This document shows, piece after piece, positions 1,778 to 10,712 of a stretch of DNA of 11,071 nt. Origin of the DNA: Actinomycetota bacterium (GTDB lineage: Bacteria; Actinomycetota; Acidimicrobiia; Spongiisociales; ZC4RG35). How positions within the stretch are numbered: position 1 is the stretch's first letter; the number at the start of each line of letters is the position of its first letter. The stretch lies in assembly GCA_019347585.1 (NCBI GenBank), contig JAHWLC010000016.1, forward strand, positions 1-11,071, read 5' to 3'. The notes below the pieces were generated by a model. That model made no database searches. It was not told the origin of the DNA and worked only from the letters and a program-made list of their open reading frames with translations. A program made the position numbers and the translations under genes.

Positions 1778-2395
1778 GTGCGACGACCGGCGATCTGGCT
1801 CCCATGCCTGACCCTGGCCCTGGCGGCGTGCTCGGGCGGCACAGCCGCCGATCAGCCCACGACCACGCCGGAGGGGCCGGCGGTGAACGCCCCCTCGACA
1901 ACGGCGACGGCGAACGCCACGTCGTCACATGCCGCCGACGCAACCGTGGCGCCGCCCACGACCGACTCGGGGCGTCCGGTGGCCCCCGACTTCACCCTCG
2001 AGTTGGGCGACGGCGGGGAATACACCCTGTCCGAGGGATCCAAGCCCGTGTACCTGGTGTTCTGGGCGGAGTGGTGACCGACCTGCCGACGGGAGTTGCC
2101 CGTCGTGGATGCCCTGGCGGCGGAATACGCGGACCGCGTCGACTTCGTGGCGCCGGCGTGGAAGTCGAGCCCCGAGGCCACCCGGGAGCGAGCCGCCGAG
2201 CTCTTCTCCTCGGGGGAGATCATGTGGGGCCTGGACGAGGACGAGGACATCTTCGCCAGATACGGGGTGCCCTATCAGCCGGTGACCGTGCTCATCGCAG
2301 CCGACGACACCGTGGTCGAGGCCTGGCCGGGCACGAGGCCGGAAACGGACATTCGGCAGGCCATCGAACAGCTGATCGAGATCTCCGGTTCATGA
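1778..2395 (+). CDS. Candidate selenoprotein: lipoprotein thioredoxin (MPT53/DsbF/TlpA-like) with Sec100-x-x-Cys103, in-frame TGA
   Basis: This is a single frame of 205 residues if the TGA at 2075-2077 is read through. Residues 1-18 form a lipoprotein signal peptide ending in the lipobox LAAC (lipidated C18). Residues 19-65 are a Thr/Ala/Pro-rich linker. From about 67 onward there is a TlpA-type thioredoxin fold: PDFTLELGDG, then YLVFWAEW followed by the TGA, then PTCRRELP, RVDFVAPAW, and the MPT53-like loop YGVPYQPVTVLI (cis-proline region 164-169). The TGA occupies exactly the first cysteine of WCxxC, and the second cysteine (C103) is intact. TGA is a normal stop for the neighbouring genes, so wholesale recoding is excluded. 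Insertion of selenocysteine, guided by the hairpin at 2087-2105, is the best explanation. The alternative is a TGC-to-TGA nonsense mutation. The likely role is thiol-disulfide exchange outside the membrane; oxidant versus reductant is unknown. The hydrolase gene follows after 32 nt and may be cotranscribed. The GTG start is fixed by an upstream in-frame TAG. Family assignment is firm; Sec is inferred. Confidence 0.8.
2075..2077 (+). other. In-frame TGA, proposed selenocysteine codon (Sec100)
   Basis: This TGA lies between the Trp and Pro codons of the thioredoxin active site. Codon phase is identical before and after it (1778, 2075 and 2393 are all 2 modulo 3), so no frameshift is involved. 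The next base is C, a context in which UGA termination is known to be relatively weak. Confidence 0.72.
2087..2105 (+). promoter_or_regulatory. Bacterial SECIS-like hairpin just after the TGA
   Basis: CGACGGG (2087-2093) pairs perfectly with CCCGTCG (2099-2105) around the loop AGTTG. The loop begins 16 nt after the TGA and has G in its second position. Both points meet the published bacterial SECIS search criteria as I recall them (loop roughly 16-37 nt from UGA, a G in the first two loop bases). Beyond the stem, ACC/GG bases (2081-2083 with 2107-2110) might pair weakly across an internal loop. The stem is made of the Arg-Arg and Pro-Val-Val codons, and in GC-rich DNA such a stem can arise by chance. 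Confidence 0.6.
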
Positions 2396-2427: not shown

Positions 2428-3822
2428 TTGAGACGCCTCGAGCTGATCCTCGTATTCGCCTCGGCATTCGCCGTGCTCTGGCCGGTGGTGTTCGGCGTGC
2501 GCCCGAGACGGGGGATCGTGGCGGGGGTCCTCGTCGTCGCCTTCGTCGCCCAGCTCCAGATCGAAGGCTACCGCTGGCAGATGGTCCCGCTGTACGGCGT
2601 CGCGCTCGGGCTCGCCCTCGGCGACGTCCTCTTCATCGACCGAACGCTCAGTTGGACCTCGCGGCTTTCGAGGGGTGTCTTCGGTCTCGCCGGCCTGACG
2701 CTGGCTGCCGCCCTTCCCTTGGCCCTGCCGGTGCCCGAGATCCCCCCGCCCCCGGGCCCGGAGGCGATCGGGGCAGTCACGGTGCACCTGGTCGACGTGT
2801 CCCGAGAGGAGATCTACGGCCCGGACCCCGGGGGACCCAGGCGCTTTCGCGCCCATGTCTGGTATCCGGCAGAGGCCTCTTCGGGCGTGGCGCCGGCGCC
2901 GTGGGTCACCGACTGGGATGTGGTGGTCCCGGCGCTGGCCCGGAGCATGGGTCTCCCCGGTTGGTTCCTCGACCACACCCGCTACACCGACTCTCATGCC
3001 CGGCGCTCCTTGCCCGTGGCTCCCGGTACCTTCCCGGTGGTCGTCTACAGCCACAGATGGAGCGGTCTCGGCTCCATCGCCGTCAACCAGGTCGAGGCGC
3101 TGGTCTCCAACGGCTATGTGGTCATCGCCCCCGACCACACCTATGGCGCGGTGGCCACCATCGGCAACGAAGGCGAGGTGGTGCCATTAGACCCGGCGGC
3201 GCTACCCGATCGTGGCGAGGTGGGCGACGCCGTCCACCTCGAGGCCGCCGCCGAGCTCGTCGACGTGTTCGCGGGCGACATCGTCACCATTCTCGACGGT
3301 CTCGAGGAGGGCGAGGAAGGTCCCTTCGGAGCCATCGCCGAGGTCGCCGACCTGACCCGGATCGGCGTCTACGGGCATTCCGTCGGGGGTGGGGCCGCCA
3401 TACAACTGTGTCTCACCGATGAGCGATGCGACGCCGTGCTGGGAATGGACCCCTGGGTCGAGCCTTTCTCCGTCCGCACGCTGCGCATCAGCGCCACCCG
3501 GCCCGCCCTGTTCATGAGGTCCGACGGGTGGCGGGGCACGCCCAACGATTCGCTCCTGCGCGGCATCGCCGGGCGCAGCGAGGCGGTCACCTACTGGCTG
3601 GGCATCGAGGGAGCCGGGCACAACGATTTCACCGTCGCTCCCTTCTTCTCGCCGTTCGGCTATCAGATGGGGCTGAAAGGGCCGATCCCCACCGGGCGCC
3701 TCACCCCGATAGTCGACAACTACCTCGTCGGGTTCTTCGACGTCTTCCTGCTCGGTACCGGGACCGCACCGCTCGACTCGGTCGACTTCCCCGAGGTGGC
3801 ATTGGAGGTCGTCTCCCCCTGA
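2428..3822 (+). CDS. Membrane-anchored PAF-acetylhydrolase II-like alpha/beta hydrolase
   Basis: This encodes 464 residues in two parts. Residues 5-100 hold about four hydrophobic helices (5-22, 29-45, 53-70, 84-100). A Pro-rich hinge (102-111) leads to an alpha/beta hydrolase domain resembling plasma-type platelet-activating-factor acetylhydrolase, a Ca-independent serine esterase. Key elements in order are: FPVVVYSHRWSG (oxyanion region, about 202-213); the nucleophile elbow GHSVGG with Ser318; MDPWVEP with Asp341, where PAF-AH has its LDAW aspartate; and GAGHNDF with His398. The triad is therefore complete. The likely substrates are short-chain or oxidised acyl esters, but this cannot be told from sequence. 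The start is TTG at 2428, the only start upstream of the first helix (an in-frame TAA lies at 2413); no ribosome site is evident. GTG at 2473 is an alternative that cuts into the first helix. The gene probably shares a transcript with the thioredoxin lipoprotein unless the intervening hairpin terminates it. Confidence 0.85.
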   Translation: MRRLELILVFASAFAVLWPVVFGVRPRRGIVAGVLVVAFVAQLQIEGYRWQMVPLYGVALGLALGDVLFIDRTLSWTSRLSRGVFGLAGLTLAAALPLALPVPEIPPPPGPEAIGAVTVHLVDVSREEIYGPDPGGPRRFRAHVWYPAEASSGVAPAPWVTDWDVVVPALARSMGLPGWFLDHTRYTDSHARRSLPVAPGTFPVVVYSHRWSGLGSIAVNQVEALVSNGYVVIAPDHTYGAVATIGNEGEVVPLDPAALPDRGEVGDAVHLEAAAELVDVFAGDIVTILDGLEEGEEGPFGAIAEVADLTRIGVYGHSVGGGAAIQLCLTDERCDAVLGMDPWVEPFSVRTLRISATRPALFMRSDGWRGTPNDSLLRGIAGRSEAVTYWLGIEGAGHNDFTVAPFFSPFGYQMGLKGPIPTGRLTPIVDNYLVGFFDVFLLGTGTAPLDSVDFPEVALEVVSP

Positions 3823-3891
3823 GCCGGGTCAGGGGGCGGGCCTTTGCCGGGTCAGGGGGCGGGCCTTTGCCGGGTCAGGGGGCGGGTCTTT
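3823..3891. repeat. Three tandem 23-bp G-rich repeats between convergent genes
   Basis: There are three head-to-tail copies: 3823-3845, 3846-3868 and 3869-3891. The first two are identical; the third differs by one C-to-T (GGGTCTTT for GGGCCTTT). Each unit carries GGG, GGGGG and GGG runs, so the plus strand has nine G-runs in 69 bp and could fold as a G-quadruplex. The array begins directly after the hydrolase stop. Its last copy overlaps the end of the minus-strand ccmG (stop 3877-3875) and encodes that protein's last residues. It occupies the place expected for a transcription terminator. Confidence 0.9.
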
Positions 3892-4468
3892 GCATCGTGT
3901 CCCCGGTGACCTTCTGCCCGGGCTGCTCCCCGGCCAGGATGGCGTCGATGGTGGCGCCGAGGATGAAGGCGTTCGACTCGCCTACGAATTTTCCGACCAC
4001 CGTTCCTTCTGCGTCCACGAAGAAAGTCTCCGGGATCCCGAAGACCCCATAGGCGATGGCGGCCCGGCTTCCCGGATCGGCGAGGTACAGCGCCGACTCC
4101 GCGGTCCCCGCCTCCTCCAGATACTCGAGCGTCCGCGCCGGGCTCTCCTGATAGCCGATCTGGACGAGTCTCACACCTCGGTCGGAGAAGGCGTCCGCCA
4201 TTGCCGTGAGATCGTCGTGCTCGGCCCGGCATTGCAGGCACCACGAGGCGAAGAAGTTGATGACCACCACCTCGCCCTGCAGTTCGGACAGGCTCACGGT
4301 CGACGATCCGTCCAGGGTGGGGAGCGAGAAGCCCGGGGCGGGCTCACCGATGAGCGGCGATGGCACCAATCCCGGGTCGGTGCCGAACCGCGACGCCAGG
4401 ATCACGGCGAAGACCACCGCACCCAGGGCCACCCCGAGTCCCAGCCAGCGAAGCCCCCGCCCGGTCAT
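3875..4468 (-). CDS. ccmG: CcmG/DsbE thiol-disulfide oxidoreductase
   Basis: This encodes a 197-residue, membrane-tethered thioredoxin that reduces apocytochrome c or CcmH thiols before heme attachment. Residues 7-26 form the N-terminal membrane anchor. The thioredoxin domain starts with GEPAPGFSLPTLDG (41-54) and contains INFFASWCLQC with C77 and C80, the acidic stretch RAEHDDL, and the cis-proline loop GVFGIPETFFVD (P146). GIPETF is typical of CcmG/TlpA proteins, and the size is close to E. coli CcmG (185 aa). It is the last gene of the operon. Its ATG overlaps the stop of the CcmH gene (ATGA, 4465-4468), so translation is likely coupled. The C-terminal tail runs into the 23-bp repeat array and may have been reshaped by it. 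High certainty for family; the exact partner is inferred. Confidence 0.93.
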   Translation of the reverse strand: MTGRGLRWLGLGVALGAVVFAVILASRFGTDPGLVPSPLIGEPAPGFSLPTLDGSSTVSLSELQGEVVVINFFASWCLQCRAEHDDLTAMADAFSDRGVRLVQIGYQESPARTLEYLEEAGTAESALYLADPGSRAAIAYGVFGIPETFFVDAEGTVVGKFVGESNAFILGATIDAILAGEQPGQKVTGDTMQRPAP

Positions 4469-5472
4469 GCGCCGCAGGGCTCGTCCCGGCGAGCCAACTC
4501 CAGGTCTTCCTCCACCTGGGCCCGGGGCTCGCCTTCCAGCCCGCCCCGGTCGAGCACTTCCTGGAAGAGAGCGGCCGCCTCCTCGGGGCGGCCGGCGCCG
4601 CACCAGAGCACCTGGCCCTTCAGATAGAGGGCCACCGGTGTGGCCTGAATGCTCAGAGCCTGGTCGAGCAGAGCCAGAGCCGTCTCCACCTCTCCGTTCC
4701 CCTCGTAGGCCATCCACCCGAGCCGGGCGAGGGCGGTATGCGCCTGCTCCTGAGAGGCGTTTTCAGACTCGGCGACCGCCAGGTAGTGGGGGAAGGCCGA
4801 GCGGTAGTCGCCAACCTGGAAATAGCGCTCGGCCAGGGCGAGCCTCATCCCGTCGATGCGTGGATCGTCGGCGTTCGCGGAGACCACGGCCTCCATGGTC
4901 TCGTTGGAGACCTGTGAGGAGTCGACCCCGTCGAGGTCGGCCGCCCCGGCAGCGGGGCCGGGCCGATCCTGGATGGCAGAGCCTGCGGCCACGATCACTC
5001 CGCCCGCGGCCACGGCGAGGATCACCCCTCCCACCCACGCCCGGGCCCGGCTCCTGGGCCGGGGTGCGGTGACGGCGGCACCTTCCCCGGGTGGATGTGA
5101 GCGCCACCAGACGATGACCGAGATCCCGACGAGCAGGGCGAGCAGCGGCGCGAGCCACAGCCACAAGGTGCCTCCGGAGGCGGGTGGGTCGAGGAGGAGG
5201 GCACCCGTGTAGGAGGTGGTGATCTCGGAGATGATCTCCTCGTCGGTGGCGCCCTCGTCGACTCGCTGGCGCACCAGGGCCATCATGTCCCGGGCCATGG
5301 GCGCCGGGCTGTCGATGATCGCCTCGCCCTGGCAGACCGGGCACCTGATTCGGGACCCCAGTGCCTCTACGCGGTCCTCGGTGCCCGGAGCCGAGGCCAT
5401 CAGCGTCACCAGGGTCACCAGTGCGGCTGCGATGAATCCCAGGTAGAGGAGGTTGCGCAGACGGTCAGACAT
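4465..5472 (-). CDS. ccmH: CcmH-CcmI fusion, apocytochrome c thiol reductase and chaperone
   Basis: This encodes 335 residues joining two functions. The N-terminal part is CcmH: a membrane segment at 8-27, then the signature RIRCPVCQGEAI with C44 and C47, and the three-helix domain ARDMMALVRQRVDEGATDEEI, followed by LLLDPPASGG and a second helix (103-123). A basic loop (138-145) and a third helix (146-166) lead to a C-terminal soluble region (about 190-330) with TPR-like helices (LALAERYFQVGDYRSAFPHYL; ALALLDQALSIQ; PEEAAALFQEVLDRGG). That region corresponds to CcmI, the apocytochrome chaperone. Such fusions are known, for example in E. coli CcmH. CcmH reduces the heme-binding CxxCH and works with CcmF and CcmG. 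The start ATG overlaps the end of ccmF by 8 nt; the stop overlaps ccmG by 4 nt. Cysteines C291 and C333 near the end are not family features. Confidence 0.92.
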   Translation of the reverse strand: MSDRLRNLLYLGFIAAALVTLVTLMASAPGTEDRVEALGSRIRCPVCQGEAIIDSPAPMARDMMALVRQRVDEGATDEEIISEITTSYTGALLLDPPASGGTLWLWLAPLLALLVGISVIVWWRSHPPGEGAAVTAPRPRSRARAWVGGVILAVAAGGVIVAAGSAIQDRPGPAAGAADLDGVDSSQVSNETMEAVVSANADDPRIDGMRLALAERYFQVGDYRSAFPHYLAVAESENASQEQAHTALARLGWMAYEGNGEVETALALLDQALSIQATPVALYLKGQVLWCGAGRPEEAAALFQEVLDRGGLEGEPRAQVEEDLELARRDEPCGA

Positions 5473-7483
5473 CGGCGGTGGCCCGCGGCTCCACCGGGGT
5501 CTCGGAACGGCGCCGTCCGGCCATGGCCATCATTCCGCCGCCGGCGACCACGCCTCCGCCCAGCCAAATCAGCCAGATCATCGGGGAGGTGTCGAACTTG
5601 AGAGTGGCATCATCAGGATCGAGGAAGAGCATGGTCACGTAGATGTCCCCACCTGGGAGGTGGAGGGCGTCGGGCGTGGCGACGCCGGTCGGGTCGTTGC
5701 CGAAGTAGTTCGCCGCCGGCTCCAAAGAGGCGACAAAGGAGCCGTCCCTCGTCACGGTGAGCCGGGCGCCCGTGGTCGTCCTCCCTGGAGCGGTCCTCTG
5801 GAACGGAGACTCGTAGGTGAAGGTGTGGCCGGCGAAGGCCACGCTCTCCCCGGGGCTCATCTCGAGCTCGGTGTGGGAGCCGAGATTGGCGGCGAAGGCG
5901 ATGCCAAGGGCGACCAGGACCACGCCGGCATGGCTGATCTGTCCACCCCAGAAACCAGGGTCCGATCTCAGCACCTCCAAGGCGGACCGAACCCCTCCCG
6001 GCCGGGAACGGGCTCGACGCTCCGCCTGCTGGAGAAGGACGCCAACGGCAGTGGCGACGACGAAGGTGCCGAGCACCACGGCGAGCACCACCCAGCCGAT
6101 GCGGGTGACGGTGAGAGCGGTGACTATTCCCGCGGCGAGCGCGACGGCGACGGGGCCCCGCACCCTCTCCCAAAGCAGCGATGCGGGAGCGGATCGCCAG
6201 GGAAGGGCGGGGCCGATGCCCATCATGAGCAGCAGGGCGAAGCTGAGCGGCACCGCCAGCCGGTTGAAGAAGGGCTCGCCGACTCCGATCCTGGTCCCGG
6301 TGAAGGCCTCCACGATCAGTGGGTAGGTGGTGCCGGTCAGCGTGATGAAGGCGTACAAGGTGAGCAGCAGGTTGTTGGCCAGGAAGGAGCCCTCCCGCGA
6401 GACGAGATTGTCTATCCGCGGCGCCGAGGCCACCAGATGCGACCTCGTGGAGAACAATGTGAACGAGCCGACCAATACCAGCACCAAGAATCCGAGGAGC
6501 ACCGGGCCGATGGCCGATTGGGTGAAAGAGTGGACGGATTGGATCGTCCCGGAGCGAGTCAGGAACGTGCCCAGGATGGTGAGGGCGAACGTCGAGATCA
6601 CCAGGACGAAGTTCCAGGCCTGGAGCATGCCGCGACGCCGCTGCACCAGCGCCGAGTGGAGAAAGGCAGTCGCCACCAGCCAGGGCATCAGAGAGGCGTT
6701 CTCCACCGGGTCCCACGCCCAGTACCCGCCCCAGGAGAGCACCTCGTAGGCCCACCAGCCTCCCAAGACGATGCCTACGGTGAGAAAGGACCAGGCGAGA
6801 AGGGTCGATCGGTGACTCCGCCGCAGCCACTCCACGCCCGGGACGGCCAGGGCGAGAGCGGCGATGGCGTAGGCGAAGGGGACGGTCATCCCCACATAGC
6901 CGAGGTAGAGCATGGGGGGGTGGATCGCCATCAGGAGATGGTTCTGAAGCAGCGGGTTGGGCCCGTTACCCTCGGCCGGCGCCTCGGCCGGCGACCACGG
7001 CCAGGGGCTCGATCCGGCGCACCCGTTGGCCACGGCTTCGGTGCAGACCTCGAACGGGTTGGCCACCGTCAGCATGAGCCCGAAGAAGAACACGGCGACG
7101 ACTCCCATCACGGCCAGGGCGCCGGCTCCCAGCGCATCGGGATTGGATCGATGGCGGCGAAGCACCATCCAGGTGAACCCGGCGAGGACCAAGCCCCAGA
7201 GGACGATCGATCCCTCCAGGGCAGCCCACGCGGTGGCCACATTGAAGGGGAACGGGGTGGTCGAGGCGTGGTTGTTGGCCACGTAGGCCAGGCTGAAGTC
7301 GTTGCTGAGCAGGGCGAGCTGCAGGGCGGCCATGGAGATCACCGCCCCGCCCAACATCAGCCGGGCAGCCGGCTCGAGCCCATACGCCTGGGCACCGCGA
7401 GATGCGCGCCAGCCTCGCCCCGCCAGCAGCAGTGACCCGAGCAGGGCGGCTGCCAGCCCGAGGGTTCCGAGGAGGGAGAGCAT
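5465..7483 (-). CDS. ccmF: CcmF, heme lyase core of System I cytochrome c maturation
   Basis: This encodes a 672-residue polytopic membrane protein that takes heme from holo-CcmE and, with CcmH, ligates it to apocytochrome c. The tryptophan-rich WWD heme-handling domain is intact (GGWWAYEVLSWGGYWAWDP starting at 241, running to MPWL at 268). Conserved histidine regions are present at HPPMLYLGY (H188) and TRSGTIQSVHSF (H318). The early helix pair LLSNDFSLAYV and ALEGSIVLWGL is also typical, as is the extracytoplasmic C-terminal domain followed by a last helix (about 633-655). The length matches E. coli CcmF (647). One oddity is a longer loop after SNPF/ANPFE containing C147 and C155 and a run of Pro/Trp/Ala (159-170), where E. 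coli reads almost straight into the NPLLQ motif. The ATG at 7483 shares one base with the ccmE stop (TGATG). Confidence 0.97.
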   Translation of the reverse strand: MLSLLGTLGLAAALLGSLLLAGRGWRASRGAQAYGLEPAARLMLGGAVISMAALQLALLSNDFSLAYVANNHASTTPFPFNVATAWAALEGSIVLWGLVLAGFTWMVLRRHRSNPDALGAGALAVMGVVAVFFFGLMLTVANPFEVCTEAVANGCAGSSPWPWSPAEAPAEGNGPNPLLQNHLLMAIHPPMLYLGYVGMTVPFAYAIAALALAVPGVEWLRRSHRSTLLAWSFLTVGIVLGGWWAYEVLSWGGYWAWDPVENASLMPWLVATAFLHSALVQRRRGMLQAWNFVLVISTFALTILGTFLTRSGTIQSVHSFTQSAIGPVLLGFLVLVLVGSFTLFSTRSHLVASAPRIDNLVSREGSFLANNLLLTLYAFITLTGTTYPLIVEAFTGTRIGVGEPFFNRLAVPLSFALLLMMGIGPALPWRSAPASLLWERVRGPVAVALAAGIVTALTVTRIGWVVLAVVLGTFVVATAVGVLLQQAERRARSRPGGVRSALEVLRSDPGFWGGQISHAGVVLVALGIAFAANLGSHTELEMSPGESVAFAGHTFTYESPFQRTAPGRTTTGARLTVTRDGSFVASLEPAANYFGNDPTGVATPDALHLPGGDIYVTMLFLDPDDATLKFDTSPMIWLIWLGGGVVAGGGMMAMAGRRRSETPVEPRATADV

Positions 7484-7893
7484 CAGCCCTCTGCTGCCGT
7501 CCCGCCGCGCTCGGGTATCCGATAGTTCTCGTCGTGGCGGATCAGCGCCTCGCCGGCGTCGAAGGTGTCACCCGACCACGAGCCGTCGAGCAGCACCGGC
7601 ACGCCCTCGGCGAACAGGGGCGGCGGGCTGTTGCGGAGGATGACAGGGATCGTCGCTCCCCCGTCGGTCACCTCGAACCGATAAACCTCGCCACGCTCCA
7701 CGGTTCCCTCCACGACCATCCCGGCGAGGCGGAACCGCTCCCCGTCGGGGAACTCGGCCCGCCGATCCACGGCCTCGGTCGGATACAGGTAATAGGTGAG
7801 GTTCTGGCCGAGGCCGATGAGGGTCATCGCTACGACGAGGGCGATCACCCCGCCGATGCCGAGGAGGACGAAACGCCGATGCTGCACGCTCAA
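7483..7893 (-). CDS. ccmE: CcmE, heme chaperone
   Basis: This encodes a 136-residue, membrane-anchored heme chaperone, which binds heme covalently through a histidine and hands it to CcmF. Residues 8-29 form the membrane anchor. They are followed by the beta-barrel OB-fold (RRAEFPDGERFRLAGMVVEGTV; VEGTVERGEVYRFEVTDGGATIPV). The heme attachment motif is LIRHDENYRIP, with H120 as the covalent ligand and Y124 as axial ligand. This is the classical HxxxY type, not the CxxxY variant of archaea and some other bacteria. The TTG at 7893 overlaps the ccmD stop (GGTTGAGC), fitting coupled translation; a GTG two codons later (7887) is an alternative. The short charged tail is normal for the family. Confidence 0.96.
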   Translation of the reverse strand: MSVQHRRFVLLGIGGVIALVVAMTLIGLGQNLTYYLYPTEAVDRRAEFPDGERFRLAGMVVEGTVERGEVYRFEVTDGGATIPVILRNSPPPLFAEGVPVLLDGSWSGDTFDAGEALIRHDENYRIPERGGTAAEG

Positions 7894-7994
7894 CCCCCGG
7901 CTCTGCGATGACGCAGATGGAGATAGACGGCGTATCCGACGATGACGCCGTAGGAGACCAAGAAGACGAGCGTCACCACCATCTGGTCAGACAT
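7890..7994 (-). CDS. ccmD: CcmD, small heme-exporter subunit
   Basis: This is a 34-residue protein (MSDQMVVTLVFLVSYGVIVG then AYAVYLHLRHRR-type tail) with one membrane helix at about 5-25 and a basic C-terminal end (HLRHRRAGG). That matches the usual CcmD layout of a single helix with a SYG/AYG motif followed by positive residues. In System I, CcmD is needed to release holo-CcmE from the CcmABC complex. Position confirms it: it overlaps the end of ccmC by 8 nt and the start of ccmE by 3 nt. It is short enough to be missed by gene callers. Confidence 0.9.
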   Translation of the reverse strand: MSDQMVVTLVFLVSYGVIVGYAVYLHLRHRRAGG

Positions 7995-8697
7995 CGCCGA
8001 CCTCGCTCAACCGCGGCGGCTTGACCTCGGCTCCGGCCATCGCCTCCCGCTCTGCTGCCGATTCCTCGGCCTCGGCCACCTCCATTCGAGCCACCACGAG
8101 GGCCACATAGAGCAGGGTGAAGGCAGCCAGGTTCACCAGCATCGCGACCAGCATCTCCCGGGGCATGGTGGAGCCGTCGGGTCGGATCGACTGCGTCTGG
8201 TGGAGGGTGCGGAACATGTTCACCGAGAAGTAGACCAGCGGGACCTGAACCACGGCCACGGCGCCGAGGATGGCCGAACGCCGGGCGCGAACCACCGGGT
8301 CGTCGATGGCGCCGCGCAGTGCCAGATATCCGAGGTAGACGAAGAACATGACCGCCGTGGTGGCGAGGCGGGGATCGCCCCAGTCCCAGGCGGTGCCCCA
8401 CACCCGCTGGCCCCAAATCATCCCGGTGGCGATGCCGATCGCGGTGAACAGGACCCCGACCTCGGCGGAGGCCATGGCAAGCCGGTCCCATCGGGGCCGT
8501 TTCTTCCACAGCCACATGATCGAGCCGAAGGCGGTGACGCCGAAGGCCAGGAAGGCGAGCCAGAGCGAGGGGACATGTATGTTGATGATCCGGCTGAACG
8601 CACCCTGGAGAGCGTCGGCGGGAGCGGTCAGAGCGAGCCAGAGGCCGACGGCGATCGCCAGCGCCGCCACTCCCACTAATACCGTTGCCCGCTTCAT
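7987..8697 (-). CDS. ccmC: CcmC, heme-handling membrane protein
   Basis: This encodes 236 residues with six membrane helices. CcmC binds heme on the outer face of the membrane and attaches it to CcmE as part of the CcmABCD complex. The WWD domain reads WGQRVWGTAWDWGDPRLAT (95-113). It is flanked by the two conserved histidines: H41 in NIHVPSLW and H166 in FRTLHQ. Length and motif spacing match the family (E. coli 245 aa). The ATG at 8697 overlaps the ccmB stop (ATGA), and its own stop lies inside the start of ccmD. The cytoplasmic tail (205-236) is rich in Glu/Ala, as is common. Confidence 0.97.
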   Translation of the reverse strand: MKRATVLVGVAALAIAVGLWLALTAPADALQGAFSRIINIHVPSLWLAFLAFGVTAFGSIMWLWKKRPRWDRLAMASAEVGVLFTAIGIATGMIWGQRVWGTAWDWGDPRLATTAVMFFVYLGYLALRGAIDDPVVRARRSAILGAVAVVQVPLVYFSVNMFRTLHQTQSIRPDGSTMPREMLVAMLVNLAAFTLLYVALVVARMEVAEAEESAAEREAMAGAEVKPPRLSEVGDV

Positions 8698-9368
8698 CGT
8701 GTCGCCTCTTCCAATGGTCTCGCCATGGCCACACCGGCCACGGCCAGCGCCAGGTCGGTGGTCAGCATGAGTAGTACCCAGGGAAGGATACCGGCGCCCG
8801 CCGCTATTGCCTCAAAGGTCTGAGATCCCGCGACGAGCAGCGGAATCGCCAGCGGGGCGACGATCAGGGAGGCCAGAGCCGTGCGGTCCCTGAGGCCCCA
8901 GGCGATCTCGCCGGCGAGGGTGCCCAGCTCGGACAGCCCCACCGCCACCATGACGATGGAGAGAGCGATGGCCGGGGCGGCCGCCAGAGGAAGACGAGGT
9001 CCGTAGAGAAGGACCATTGCCACGAACAGGACGACGAGGAAGGCCGTGGTGAGCAGCGACCCCGCCAGCACCCTCCCTGCGAAGCGGGCCGCCGGGTCCA
9101 CTCCGAGGAGGGCGTGGAGGTCCCGTCTCTCCCGGTCGTCGGTGGAGGAGCGTCGCAGGGCGACCTGCATGCCGAAGAGGATGCCGAGGGCCCAGAACAC
9201 CGCCGTCCCGATCTCGGAGACCAGGGTGATGCGGAGACCGAGCGCCATGGGGAACATGGCCAGGGCGACCAGGGCGAAGGGTGCGATGATGCGGAACGAC
9301 TCGCCGAGCCGGCGCTCCAGCGCGAGGTCGACACGGGCCAGTTCGAGCGTCTGGTCGCCAAAGCTCAC
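8694..9368 (-). CDS. ccmB: CcmB, permease subunit of the CcmAB transporter
   Basis: This encodes a 224-residue six-helix membrane protein, the permease partner of the ATPase CcmA. The complex uses ATP to free heme-loaded CcmE from CcmC/D. Family features visible are the amphipathic N-terminus (ELARVDLALERRLGES), the first hairpin of helices with EIGTAVFWALGILFGMQVALRRS, the cytoplasmic ERRDLHALLGVDP loop that contacts the ATPase, and the helix LASLIVAPLAIPLLVAGSQTFEA. Length is equal to E. coli CcmB (220). The GTG start overlaps the ccmA stop by 4 nt (GTGA), indicating coupling. Confidence 0.93.
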   Translation of the reverse strand: MSFGDQTLELARVDLALERRLGESFRIIAPFALVALAMFPMALGLRITLVSEIGTAVFWALGILFGMQVALRRSSTDDRERRDLHALLGVDPAARFAGRVLAGSLLTTAFLVVLFVAMVLLYGPRLPLAAAPAIALSIVMVAVGLSELGTLAGEIAWGLRDRTALASLIVAPLAIPLLVAGSQTFEAIAAGAGILPWVLLMLTTDLALAVAGVAMARPLEEATR

Positions 9369-10009
9369 GCGCCGGCCACCAGCCTTCCCACTGCCAGTCC
9401 CATGACGGCGTCGCAGCTGGTCGACAGCCGCTCGGCGTCGTGGGAGACCATGACCGCCGCCCCGCCCCCGGCGACGGTGCGGGCGATCAGGGCATCGATG
9501 AGCTCTTGGGCGGAGGAGTCGAGGCCGTGGGTGGCCTCGTCGAGGAGGAGCAGACGGGGACGGGTGAGGAGCAGTCGGGCGACCTCGAGACGGCGCAGCA
9601 TCCCGTGAGAGGCGGCTCCGGCCCTGGTCCGGGCGGCGTCCTCCAGGCCGACGACTCCCAGCGCACTCCGGGCTCGGGACAGCTCGAGTGCTGCGAGCCT
9701 GCAGACATGCTCCAGGTTCTCGGTGATGGTGAGCTCGGGGATGACCGCGGGGCGATGCCCCATCAGCCCGACCTCACTCCTCACCTCGTAGACCTGATCG
9801 GTGCCAAGGTCGGCGCCGAGGACGGTTCCCTGGCCGCGATCGATGCGGACCAGCGTCGCCAGGGTGCGTACCAGAGTGGTCTTACCGGAGCCGTTGGGCC
9901 CTGCGATCCCGATGACCTGGCGCGGGTGGAGGTCGAAGTCGATGTCCCTGAGAATGGTCTTGCCCCCCAGAGACACCCCCACCTGGCGAAGACTGCAGAG
10001 AAGGGCCAC
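9365..10009 (-). CDS. ccmA: CcmA, ATPase subunit of the CcmAB transporter
   Basis: This encodes a 214-residue ABC ATPase. Motifs seen are Walker A GPNGSGKTT (37-45), a Q-loop region GLMGHRPAVIPELTITENL with the His found in CcmA proteins, a signature segment ASHGMLRRLEVARLLL (133-148), Walker B LLLLDEATHGLD (153-164) and switch His190. The signature reads SHGM rather than the SxGQ of E. coli CcmA; that is tolerated in many bacterial ATPases. I chose the GTG at 10009, 31 nt after the end of the Lgt-like gene; a GGGGAGG stretch lies about 14 nt before it. The frame stays open further upstream, but that region overlaps the previous gene and lacks family similarity. Confidence 0.93.
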   Translation of the reverse strand: MALLCSLRQVGVSLGGKTILRDIDFDLHPRQVIGIAGPNGSGKTTLVRTLATLVRIDRGQGTVLGADLGTDQVYEVRSEVGLMGHRPAVIPELTITENLEHVCRLAALELSRARSALGVVGLEDAARTRAGAASHGMLRRLEVARLLLTRPRLLLLDEATHGLDSSAQELIDALIARTVAGGGAAVMVSHDAERLSTSCDAVMGLAVGRLVAGA

Positions 10010-10040
10010 GCCGGGAGTCTCATCCTCCCCCCGGCCACTC

Positions 10041-10712
10041 TCAAGTCGGTGTGGTGATGCGCCGGCGGAGCCGTCCACCGATGAGGAGGGCGGCTGTGCC
10101 CAGTGCCAGCGCCGCCAAGTACCACCGAATCGGGCCGCCATCCAGGCTGGGACGCATCGGCTCGGTGAGCAGGCGGATCAGGGCGGCAGCTCCGAGTGCC
10201 GCCCCCGATTTGAGCAAGGGGCGCCAAGGGAGCTTGGACACCGTCCAGGCGGCGAGAACATAGGCGACGGCGGCGTAGAGCTCCACCGGATGCCGGGTGG
10301 GTGCACCCGGGGAGAGGCCCCAGGCCCAGGGGAGGTCGGAGATCGAGCCCAGGCAGGCCGATCTCCAGACACAGCCGGCATGCCAGCCGGCCAGACCGAG
10401 CAGGGCCGCGGGGGCCACCGCGTCGAGATGATCGATTCGGCCGCTGACCGACCAGAGGTAGGCGGTGATGCCGCCGATGACCGCGGCGCCGGTGTGCACC
10501 CCACCGCGGACGACCACGACGTCGAGAGGGTTGCTCAGCGGGTTGGCTCCCTGAGAGAGCATGGCCGCGACCCGTCCCGCCAGCAGACCGACGAGGATTG
10601 CGGTGACGATGTGGTCGACGGGACGGGCGGGGAGCCGATCGGGCCAGATCCTGGTGCCCGCCCACGCCAGGCCGACTCCGGTCAGGGCTGCCCAGAGCAG
10701 GGTCAGCTCCAT
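10041..10712 (-). CDS. Lgt-fold membrane protein (prolipoprotein diacylglyceryl transferase-like) in the ccm operon
   Basis: This encodes a 223-residue polytopic protein with the order of motifs of Lgt, the enzyme that adds diacylglycerol to lipoprotein cysteines. Matching parts are GRVAAM (R47), RGGVHTGAAVIGG with H73 near the Lgt 'HGG' histidine, the loop SDLPWAWG (125-132), RHPVELYAA (140-148), and R180-x-x-x-E184-P, which has the spacing of E. coli R239/E243. The core signature GRxGN, carrying the essential Arg143 and Asn146 in E. coli, is replaced by GWHAGC (109-114). Two cysteines (C114, C120) sit in the same loop. It is also shorter than most Lgt proteins. It is therefore a divergent paralogue, and true diacylglyceryl transfer is doubtful. 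Its ATG lies 7 nt after the thioredoxin gene and it precedes ccmA, suggesting a role tied to heme or thiol handling. Fold fairly sure, function unknown. Confidence 0.7.
   Translation of the reverse strand: MELTLLWAALTGVGLAWAGTRIWPDRLPARPVDHIVTAILVGLLAGRVAAMLSQGANPLSNPLDVVVVRGGVHTGAAVIGGITAYLWSVSGRIDHLDAVAPAALLGLAGWHAGCVWRSACLGSISDLPWAWGLSPGAPTRHPVELYAAVAYVLAAWTVSKLPWRPLLKSGAALGAAALIRLLTEPMRPSLDGGPIRWYLAALALGTAALLIGGRLRRRITTPT

Follow-up and report, generated by a model that had tools for sequence, protein, structure and literature searches.

A conserved in-frame TGA predicts an envelope-anchored, ResA-like selenoprotein in an order of Acidimicrobiia

Introduction

Does a stop codon in the middle of a redox gene end a protein, mark a damaged gene or encode selenocysteine (Sec)? 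The question is raised by a gene on a stretch of 11,071 nucleotides of an actinomycetotal draft genome of the class Acidimicrobiia (contig JAHWLC010000016.1), referred to here as the window. A preliminary description, made from the letters of the window, proposed that a TGA within this gene replaces the first active-site cysteine (Cys) of an extracytoplasmic thioredoxin-like lipoprotein. We followed up this proposal by comparing the gene, its surroundings and the Sec machinery across related genomes. By sequence comparison, the most likely reading is a single, envelope-anchored redox protein whose active site contains selenium, though annotation software splits the gene at the stop.

Results

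The gene lies on the forward strand at 1778–2395 and comprises 205 codons followed by a TGA stop. Its GTG start at 1778 is the earliest possible one downstream of an in-frame TAG. A predicted lipoprotein signal (1778–1831) ends in the lipobox LAAC at codons 15–18, which was read by eye from the motif; the column of Cys18 is at least 90% conserved in our alignment A2. A linker rich in Ser, Thr, Pro and Ala follows (1832–1975), with low confidence in the structure model, and then a redoxin/TlpA-like domain (1976–2392). Pfam assigned Redoxin to residues 66–192 (5e-15), and this domain match runs across the TGA. As the preliminary description had stated, the frame contains a single internal TGA, codon 100 at 2075–2077, flanked by WAEW and PTCRRELP. 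It takes the place of the first active-site Cys. The second one, Cys103 (2084–2086), is invariant in A2, as is Pro168 (2279–2281, within YGVPYQP), and Glu106 is at least 90% conserved. Pro168 presumably belongs to the cis-Pro loop of the thioredoxin fold.

The structure model reached a mean pLDDT of 86, with blocks of 90–99 from about residue 61 on, and placed residue 100 just before a helix (101–117). That is, the domain has a thioredoxin fold with a CxxC-type motif in which Sec would stand for the first Cys. The best solved folds include ResA (1st9; TM-score by target 0.91, rmsd 1.4), DsbF (0.88) and MPT53 (0.82). Thus, the likeness to MPT53 and DsbF noticed at the outset holds in so far as both folds are close, but ResA is closer. 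Cys74, Cys77 and Glu80 of ResA, the residues named in PDB titles, have the same spacing as positions 100, 103 and 106 here.

All 13 gene ends that we read in the window are TGA. The codon is therefore an ordinary stop here and has not simply been reassigned, and decoding it at codon 100 needs a signal of its own.

To see how far the TGA is conserved, the protein was searched in 99 genomes, its own draft plus 98 relatives from its family or order, and some homologue was found in all of them. The exact FWAEW motif was then read in the window and in 80 stretches fetched around the listed matches from 76 of the 98 relatives. FWAEW-TGA occurred in 68 of the 99 genomes (own included) and FWAEWC alone in five. 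Neither form was read in the other 26, of which 22 are relatives with weak matches whose stretches were not fetched; the DNA pattern FWAEW-TGA-xx-Cys matched in none of these 26 genomes. In a sample of 395 genomes of the class, the same DNA pattern matched in 93, all of them from one order (93 of 138 genomes, the 138 being a hand count, versus 0 of 257 other class members), and the reversed pattern gave no match in the 395. We take this uncultured order to be UBA5794, a GTDB name that we adopt from a study of 2025 (PMC12008989); that study treats selenate reduction, and its selenium passages name no selenoproteins. Among named GTDB genomes, 116 stretches matched the DNA motif. Relatives of the protein account for 100, with 58 titled Acidimicrobiia; of the 16 non-relatives, some look like chance and others are thioredoxin-like frames with FWAEW-TGA. 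In a sample of the phylum, 20 of 396 genomes matched at 1e-15, the best seven belonging to the same order.

Several further places with this motif were seen in passing. Thioredoxin-like frames with FWAEW-TGA-xxC from Planctomycetota and others (L214, L226, L235, L242, L246, L157, L165 and L234) are not relatives of the family by tblastn. The genomes of family f6 (G038, G051, G058, G070, G076, G090 and G093) each have a second FWAEW-TGA-xxC place outside the fetched stretches, and genus g10 (L073, L075, L089 and L090) has three FWAEW-TGA genes in tandem, some with long T-rich linkers.

The TGA is not only conserved but also aligns with the catalytic Cys of homologues, as is typical of selenoprotein genes; orthologues do carry Cys at this position, as had been assumed. 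Public proteins tell the same story from another side: at E ≤ 1e-10, 61 of 84 carry FWAEWC, and the remaining 23 (P0063–P0085) stop right after FWAEW, which looks like a gene caller's cut at the Sec codon of a selenoprotein. Fragmentation of this kind had been foreseen in the preliminary description. One Cys row, P0014, is almost identical to a Sec gene of G029 and was given no weight, since it may be a Sec that its source wrote as C. Synonymous substitution predominates before as well as after the TGA, in agreement with the purifying selection expected there. For the window against G016, dN/dS was 0.09/1.91 before the codon and 0.18/1.53 after it, with dS near saturation, and in other pairs dN was below dS on both sides. 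Over the 36 residues preceding the TGA, G011 gave 0.69/1.96; one additional residue there puts the ungapped comparison out of register.

We then asked whether a decoding signal accompanies the codon. A hairpin at 2087–2105, starting 9 nt 3' of the TGA, has a 7-bp stem (CGACGGG pairing with CCCGUCG) around the loop AGUUG. The model of the bacterial SECIS element (bSECIS) calls for a loop of 3–9 nt, a stem of 4–16 bp, a G within the first two loop bases, a position 16–37 nt after the UGA and an energy of at most -7.5 (PMC13188914). With a loop of 5 nt, a stem of 7 bp, -11.6 kcal/mol and 16 nt from UGA to loop, the window fits this model, the distance being at its lower limit. The model is likewise fitted by 66 of 79 Sec genes, 62 of which have their loop at the identical place, and by none of the five Cys genes. 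These counts exclude L133, which is cut by a contig end, and L138, which reads FWAPHU. When synonymous codons were resampled, the model was fitted in 13% of cases (maximum 24%). At an offset 9 nt earlier it was fitted in 82%, by the same hairpin; the mean for other offsets was 12%, that one included.

Pairing statistics gave a similar result. The 79 Sec genes (76 distinct) form a mean of 6.34 of the 7 pairs versus 4.44 ± 0.11 with synonymous codons resampled, and all seven pairs are formed in 59% of them versus 2.9% after resampling. Both sides of a pair were altered in 36 cells compared with 9.2 in shuffles, and 90.6% of cells were paired versus at most 69.7% when the partner was slid. Two-sided change affected four pairs, a number reached in 22 of 500 shuffles. 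These compensatory changes support the hairpin. It is not uniform: 13 of the 79 Sec forms miss the model, 30 of the 76 distinct sequences leave the outermost pair open, and one tandem copy in each of G033, G028 and G023 forms 2–3 of the 7 pairs, which counts against a uniform SECIS. RNAalifold found a weaker, five-pair version of the hairpin on the alignment, and an Rfam scan of eight stretches returned no SECIS family.

By position, it is the first tandem copy of G033, G028 and G023 in which the hairpin is mostly lost; in G030 it is retained. Active-site TGA codons were also seen in other TlpA-like predicted lipoproteins (L262, L265, L267, L138, L269 and L272), with the motifs WAPYU, WAPFU beside a Cys copy, WAPWU, WAPHU and FWESWU. 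The WAPHU protein comes from the order of the window and is the only one of these to fit the SECIS model; the other motifs come from other lineages of the phylum.

As to the Sec machinery, the own draft has selA (417.7 bits) and, immediately behind it, selB (334.8 bits), both over the cut-off. The selD gene, also over the cut-off, has a TGA of its own (motif UACK), and the region 3' of that TGA did not fit the SECIS model. Of the sel genes by which the preliminary description had suggested judging its proposal, selA, selB and selD are thus present, while tRNA-Sec was not found in this draft, which is 75.6% complete; matches to RF01852 of 28–43 bits in it are other tRNAs. The selD of G016 (L298) has no internal TGA, though the redoxin gene of that genome has one.

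Among the 99 genomes, selA was over the cut-off in 82. For tRNA-Sec we counted matches of at least 56.8 bits, which occurred in 73 of the 98 relatives. This threshold was set after ARAGORN had called SeC(tca) in 13 of the 13 stronger matches checked, the lowest having 56.8 bits, and tRNA-Ser for over-cut-off matches of 47–56 bits in G005, G006, G022, G026, G060 and G091; the raw tally (82 of 99) was for this reason not used. Of the 68 Sec genomes, 63 contain selA or a fragment of it. In the other five (G029, G062, G069, G075 and G087) selD is over the cut-off throughout, and selB in G069 alone; four of the five are 56–75% complete. This is the pattern to be expected when a draft lacks a single contig that bears both selA and selB.

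Could the gene nevertheless be a decaying TlpA gene of the Cys type, its TGA due to a nonsense mutation or an assembly error? Cys orthologues are common enough for this to be imagined (61 of the 84 public proteins), but the relatives keep the identical TGA instead of decaying, substitution downstream of it is mostly synonymous and a conserved hairpin follows just 3' of it. At the level of the family this refutes both pseudogene and assembly error, and we regard either as highly improbable. If the TGA were a true stop, a lipoprotein fragment of 99 residues would be made separately from the product of a second open reading frame downstream, which starts with TTG at 2096. Gene callers see two genes in just this way, and TGA is an ordinary stop in the window. 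Yet the break would split a single redoxin domain, Cys orthologues with the same gene order read straight through, and the SECIS hairpin would be left without reason. We reject two separate frames, giving them hardly any chance. One full-length protein with Sec at codon 100, as initially proposed, is supported by the conserved TGA, the sel genes and the SECIS hairpin together.

If so, how do the Sec and Cys forms relate? The Cys codon is TGC in five of five Cys genes. In four of the Cys-only genomes (G007, G022, G060 and G091, 93–97% complete), selA is missing, no match to tRNA-Sec reaches 56.8 bits, and neither selB nor selD exceeds the cut-off. The fifth, G027, has selA, selB and tRNA-Sec and no selD over the cut-off. 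All three sel genes are absent over the cut-off in G006, G021, G067 and G082, which have neither form. Fisher's test for selA against the form gave p = 0.0005, uncorrected for kinship. The gene order MIP – GGCT-like – redoxin – hydrolase – Ccm is common to the g8 Cys genes (G007, G022 and G027) and to the Sec genes of family f1, which are therefore orthologues; G060 and G091 share fewer neighbours.

On a tree of 94 rows, from whose family rows L133 and L138 were left out (the L138 protein being an outgroup row), the Sec/Cys label needs three changes (bootstrap range 3–3), two of them forced by well-supported branches. The g8 Cys rows fall inside a well-supported clade of 14 rows, 11 of which are Sec, and the Cys row of G060 is joined to Sec rows by a fork of weaker support (89/89). 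The Cys row of G091 branches off at the base of the order, where the fork is unresolved. A quick tree with 61 public Cys proteins added, which leaves out 24 Sec rows and three outgroup rows, needs nine changes, three of them forced. Since the outgroup rows are a mixture of U and C, we infer the direction from Sec to Cys and do not claim it as proven.

The opposite direction, an ancestral Cys with several gains of Sec, is called the general trend in reviews (PMC1794560, PMC13188914). It would agree with the mixed outgroup, with the many Cys forms in public catalogues and with the unresolved basal place of the G091 row. We nevertheless consider it unlikely: the g8 and G060 Cys rows are placed among Sec rows, and a single origin of the Sec form is suggested by the loop, whose place is identical in 62 of the 79 Sec genes. 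Our somewhat preferred reading is a signature selenoprotein of the order that went back from Sec to Cys at least two to three separate times, with G027, already swapped to Cys but still with selA, selB and tRNA-Sec, as a genome that would show the swap to come first and the loss of the machinery after. Judged from these comparisons, the new point would be that the change from Sec to Cys goes together with the loss of the Sec machinery.

What the protein does is approached through its fold and neighbours. An alpha/beta hydrolase gene (PAF-AH_p_II, 2428–3822, forward strand) begins 32 bases downstream of the redoxin gene, and 27 of 75 loci have a relative downstream in the same orientation. Immediately behind the hydrolase gene, at 3822–3895, about three copies of a short direct repeat (gccgggtcagggggcgggcctttgc) were seen by eye. 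On the reverse strand, 3875–10141 holds a cytochrome c maturation (Ccm) cluster, in which the start of the last gene is uncertain and which includes a Cys-type CcmG/TlpA-like gene (3875–4483). CcmH, CcmE and the redoxin of this cluster were named by Pfam; the names CcmA, CcmB, CcmC, CcmF and CcmG are presumed. Relatives of CcmB, CcmC, CcmE, CcmF or CcmH occur in 30 of 75 loci, and these or Lgt in 42 of 75, always on the opposite strand, with many contigs ending early. Neither CcmG nor CcmA enters these counts; CcmA matches, found on both strands and probably including other ABC proteins, were disregarded. As a possible source of electrons, the own genome encodes a DsbD_TM protein; such a protein was over the cut-off in 19 of 21 genomes searched, with no match in G041 and one below the cut-off in G007.

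We propose the following course. The UGA at codon 100 would be read by SelB-bound Sec-tRNA because the hairpin acts as a bacterial SECIS. The product would be exported and lipid-anchored outside the cytoplasmic membrane, where Sec100 would attack a substrate disulfide and Cys103 resolve it. Electrons would probably come from a CcdA/DsbD-type membrane protein, and the protein may serve apocytochrome c or a more general control of envelope disulfides. Conserved Sec codon, SECIS, machinery and fold emerge from comparison; decoding in the cell, export and anchoring, the reducing direction, the donor and the substrates are what we infer from them.

The substrate is the weak step. Since the Ccm cluster is encoded on the opposite strand and already includes a Cys-type redoxin, a role for the selenoprotein in cytochrome c maturation rests on proximity. 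The protein could instead be an oxidase, an isomerase or a peroxidase-like enzyme, and we rate this only slightly below an even chance: it forms no operon with ccm, the redoxin of the cluster may do the apocytochrome c job, and the downstream neighbour on the same strand is a hydrolase. Against this stand ResA as the best fold match, Glu106 at the spacing of Glu80 of ResA, and the presence of Ccm or Lgt relatives at 42 of 75 loci. We favour a reductase of the ResA type that would act on disulfides in the envelope, apocytochrome c being one of its candidate substrates. The explanation as a whole, one full-length, lipid-anchored, ResA-like thiol:disulfide reductase with a SECIS-read UGA, we hold with high confidence.

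Discussion

A widespread redox trait of this order appears to be hidden from annotation, since public sets cut its proteins at the active site and no NCBIfam model reaches its cut-off. In release 20, this held for the window protein and for seven relatives, five of them searched as the domain alone. Open-access literature searches gave no paper on this redoxin family.

Among known proteins, ResA of Bacillus (1st9/2f9s), DsbF of Mycobacterium (3ios) and MPT53 (1lu4) share the fold, the spacing of the redox motif and the extracytoplasmic location, but have Cys where the window protein has Sec, and identity is about 28%. To the NCBIfam model of ResA, the protein scores 51 bits against a cut-off of 170.

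The supposition that a lipid-anchored member of this type had not been described needs correction in so far as the kind is already known. A review of 2026 lists TlpA-like UxxC (cd02966), redoxin UxxC (PF08534) and UGC TlpA proteins in its Table 1 (PMC13188914). The cd02966 (thiol-disulfide isomerase-like) and PF08534 entries, each represented there by one accession, the two being HEU0032618.1 and MGB1650493.1, belong by description to the same domain class and have the same UxxC motif; a search of the review's available text for actinobacteria or actinomycetes gave no hit. A model also exists for a predicted seleno-lipoprotein with a thioredoxin-like domain, NF041057 (Rcas_1661 thioredoxin-like (seleno)lipoprotein), which the review lists as DsbG-like (PMC13188914) and to which the window protein scores 21.4 bits against a cut-off of 190. 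NF041054 is likewise ResA-like with Sec in the active site, but its motif is WAxxUGC and not UxxC, and the score is 23.5 bits against 300.

Thus, the protein is of a kind already catalogued (PMC13188914), and the less ordinary part is the repeated change from Sec to Cys. A survey of 2006 counted 15 such events, spread over four families and most of them in FdhA and SelD (PMC1794560), and the review repeats that they are rare and mostly concern these two (PMC13188914). Orthologues that carry Sec in some genomes and Cys in others, in a shared gene order and with the Sec machinery present or absent, would offer a natural experiment on keeping or dropping selenocysteine, and it falls in a thioredoxin-fold family, where this change is said to be rare (PMC1794560, PMC13188914).
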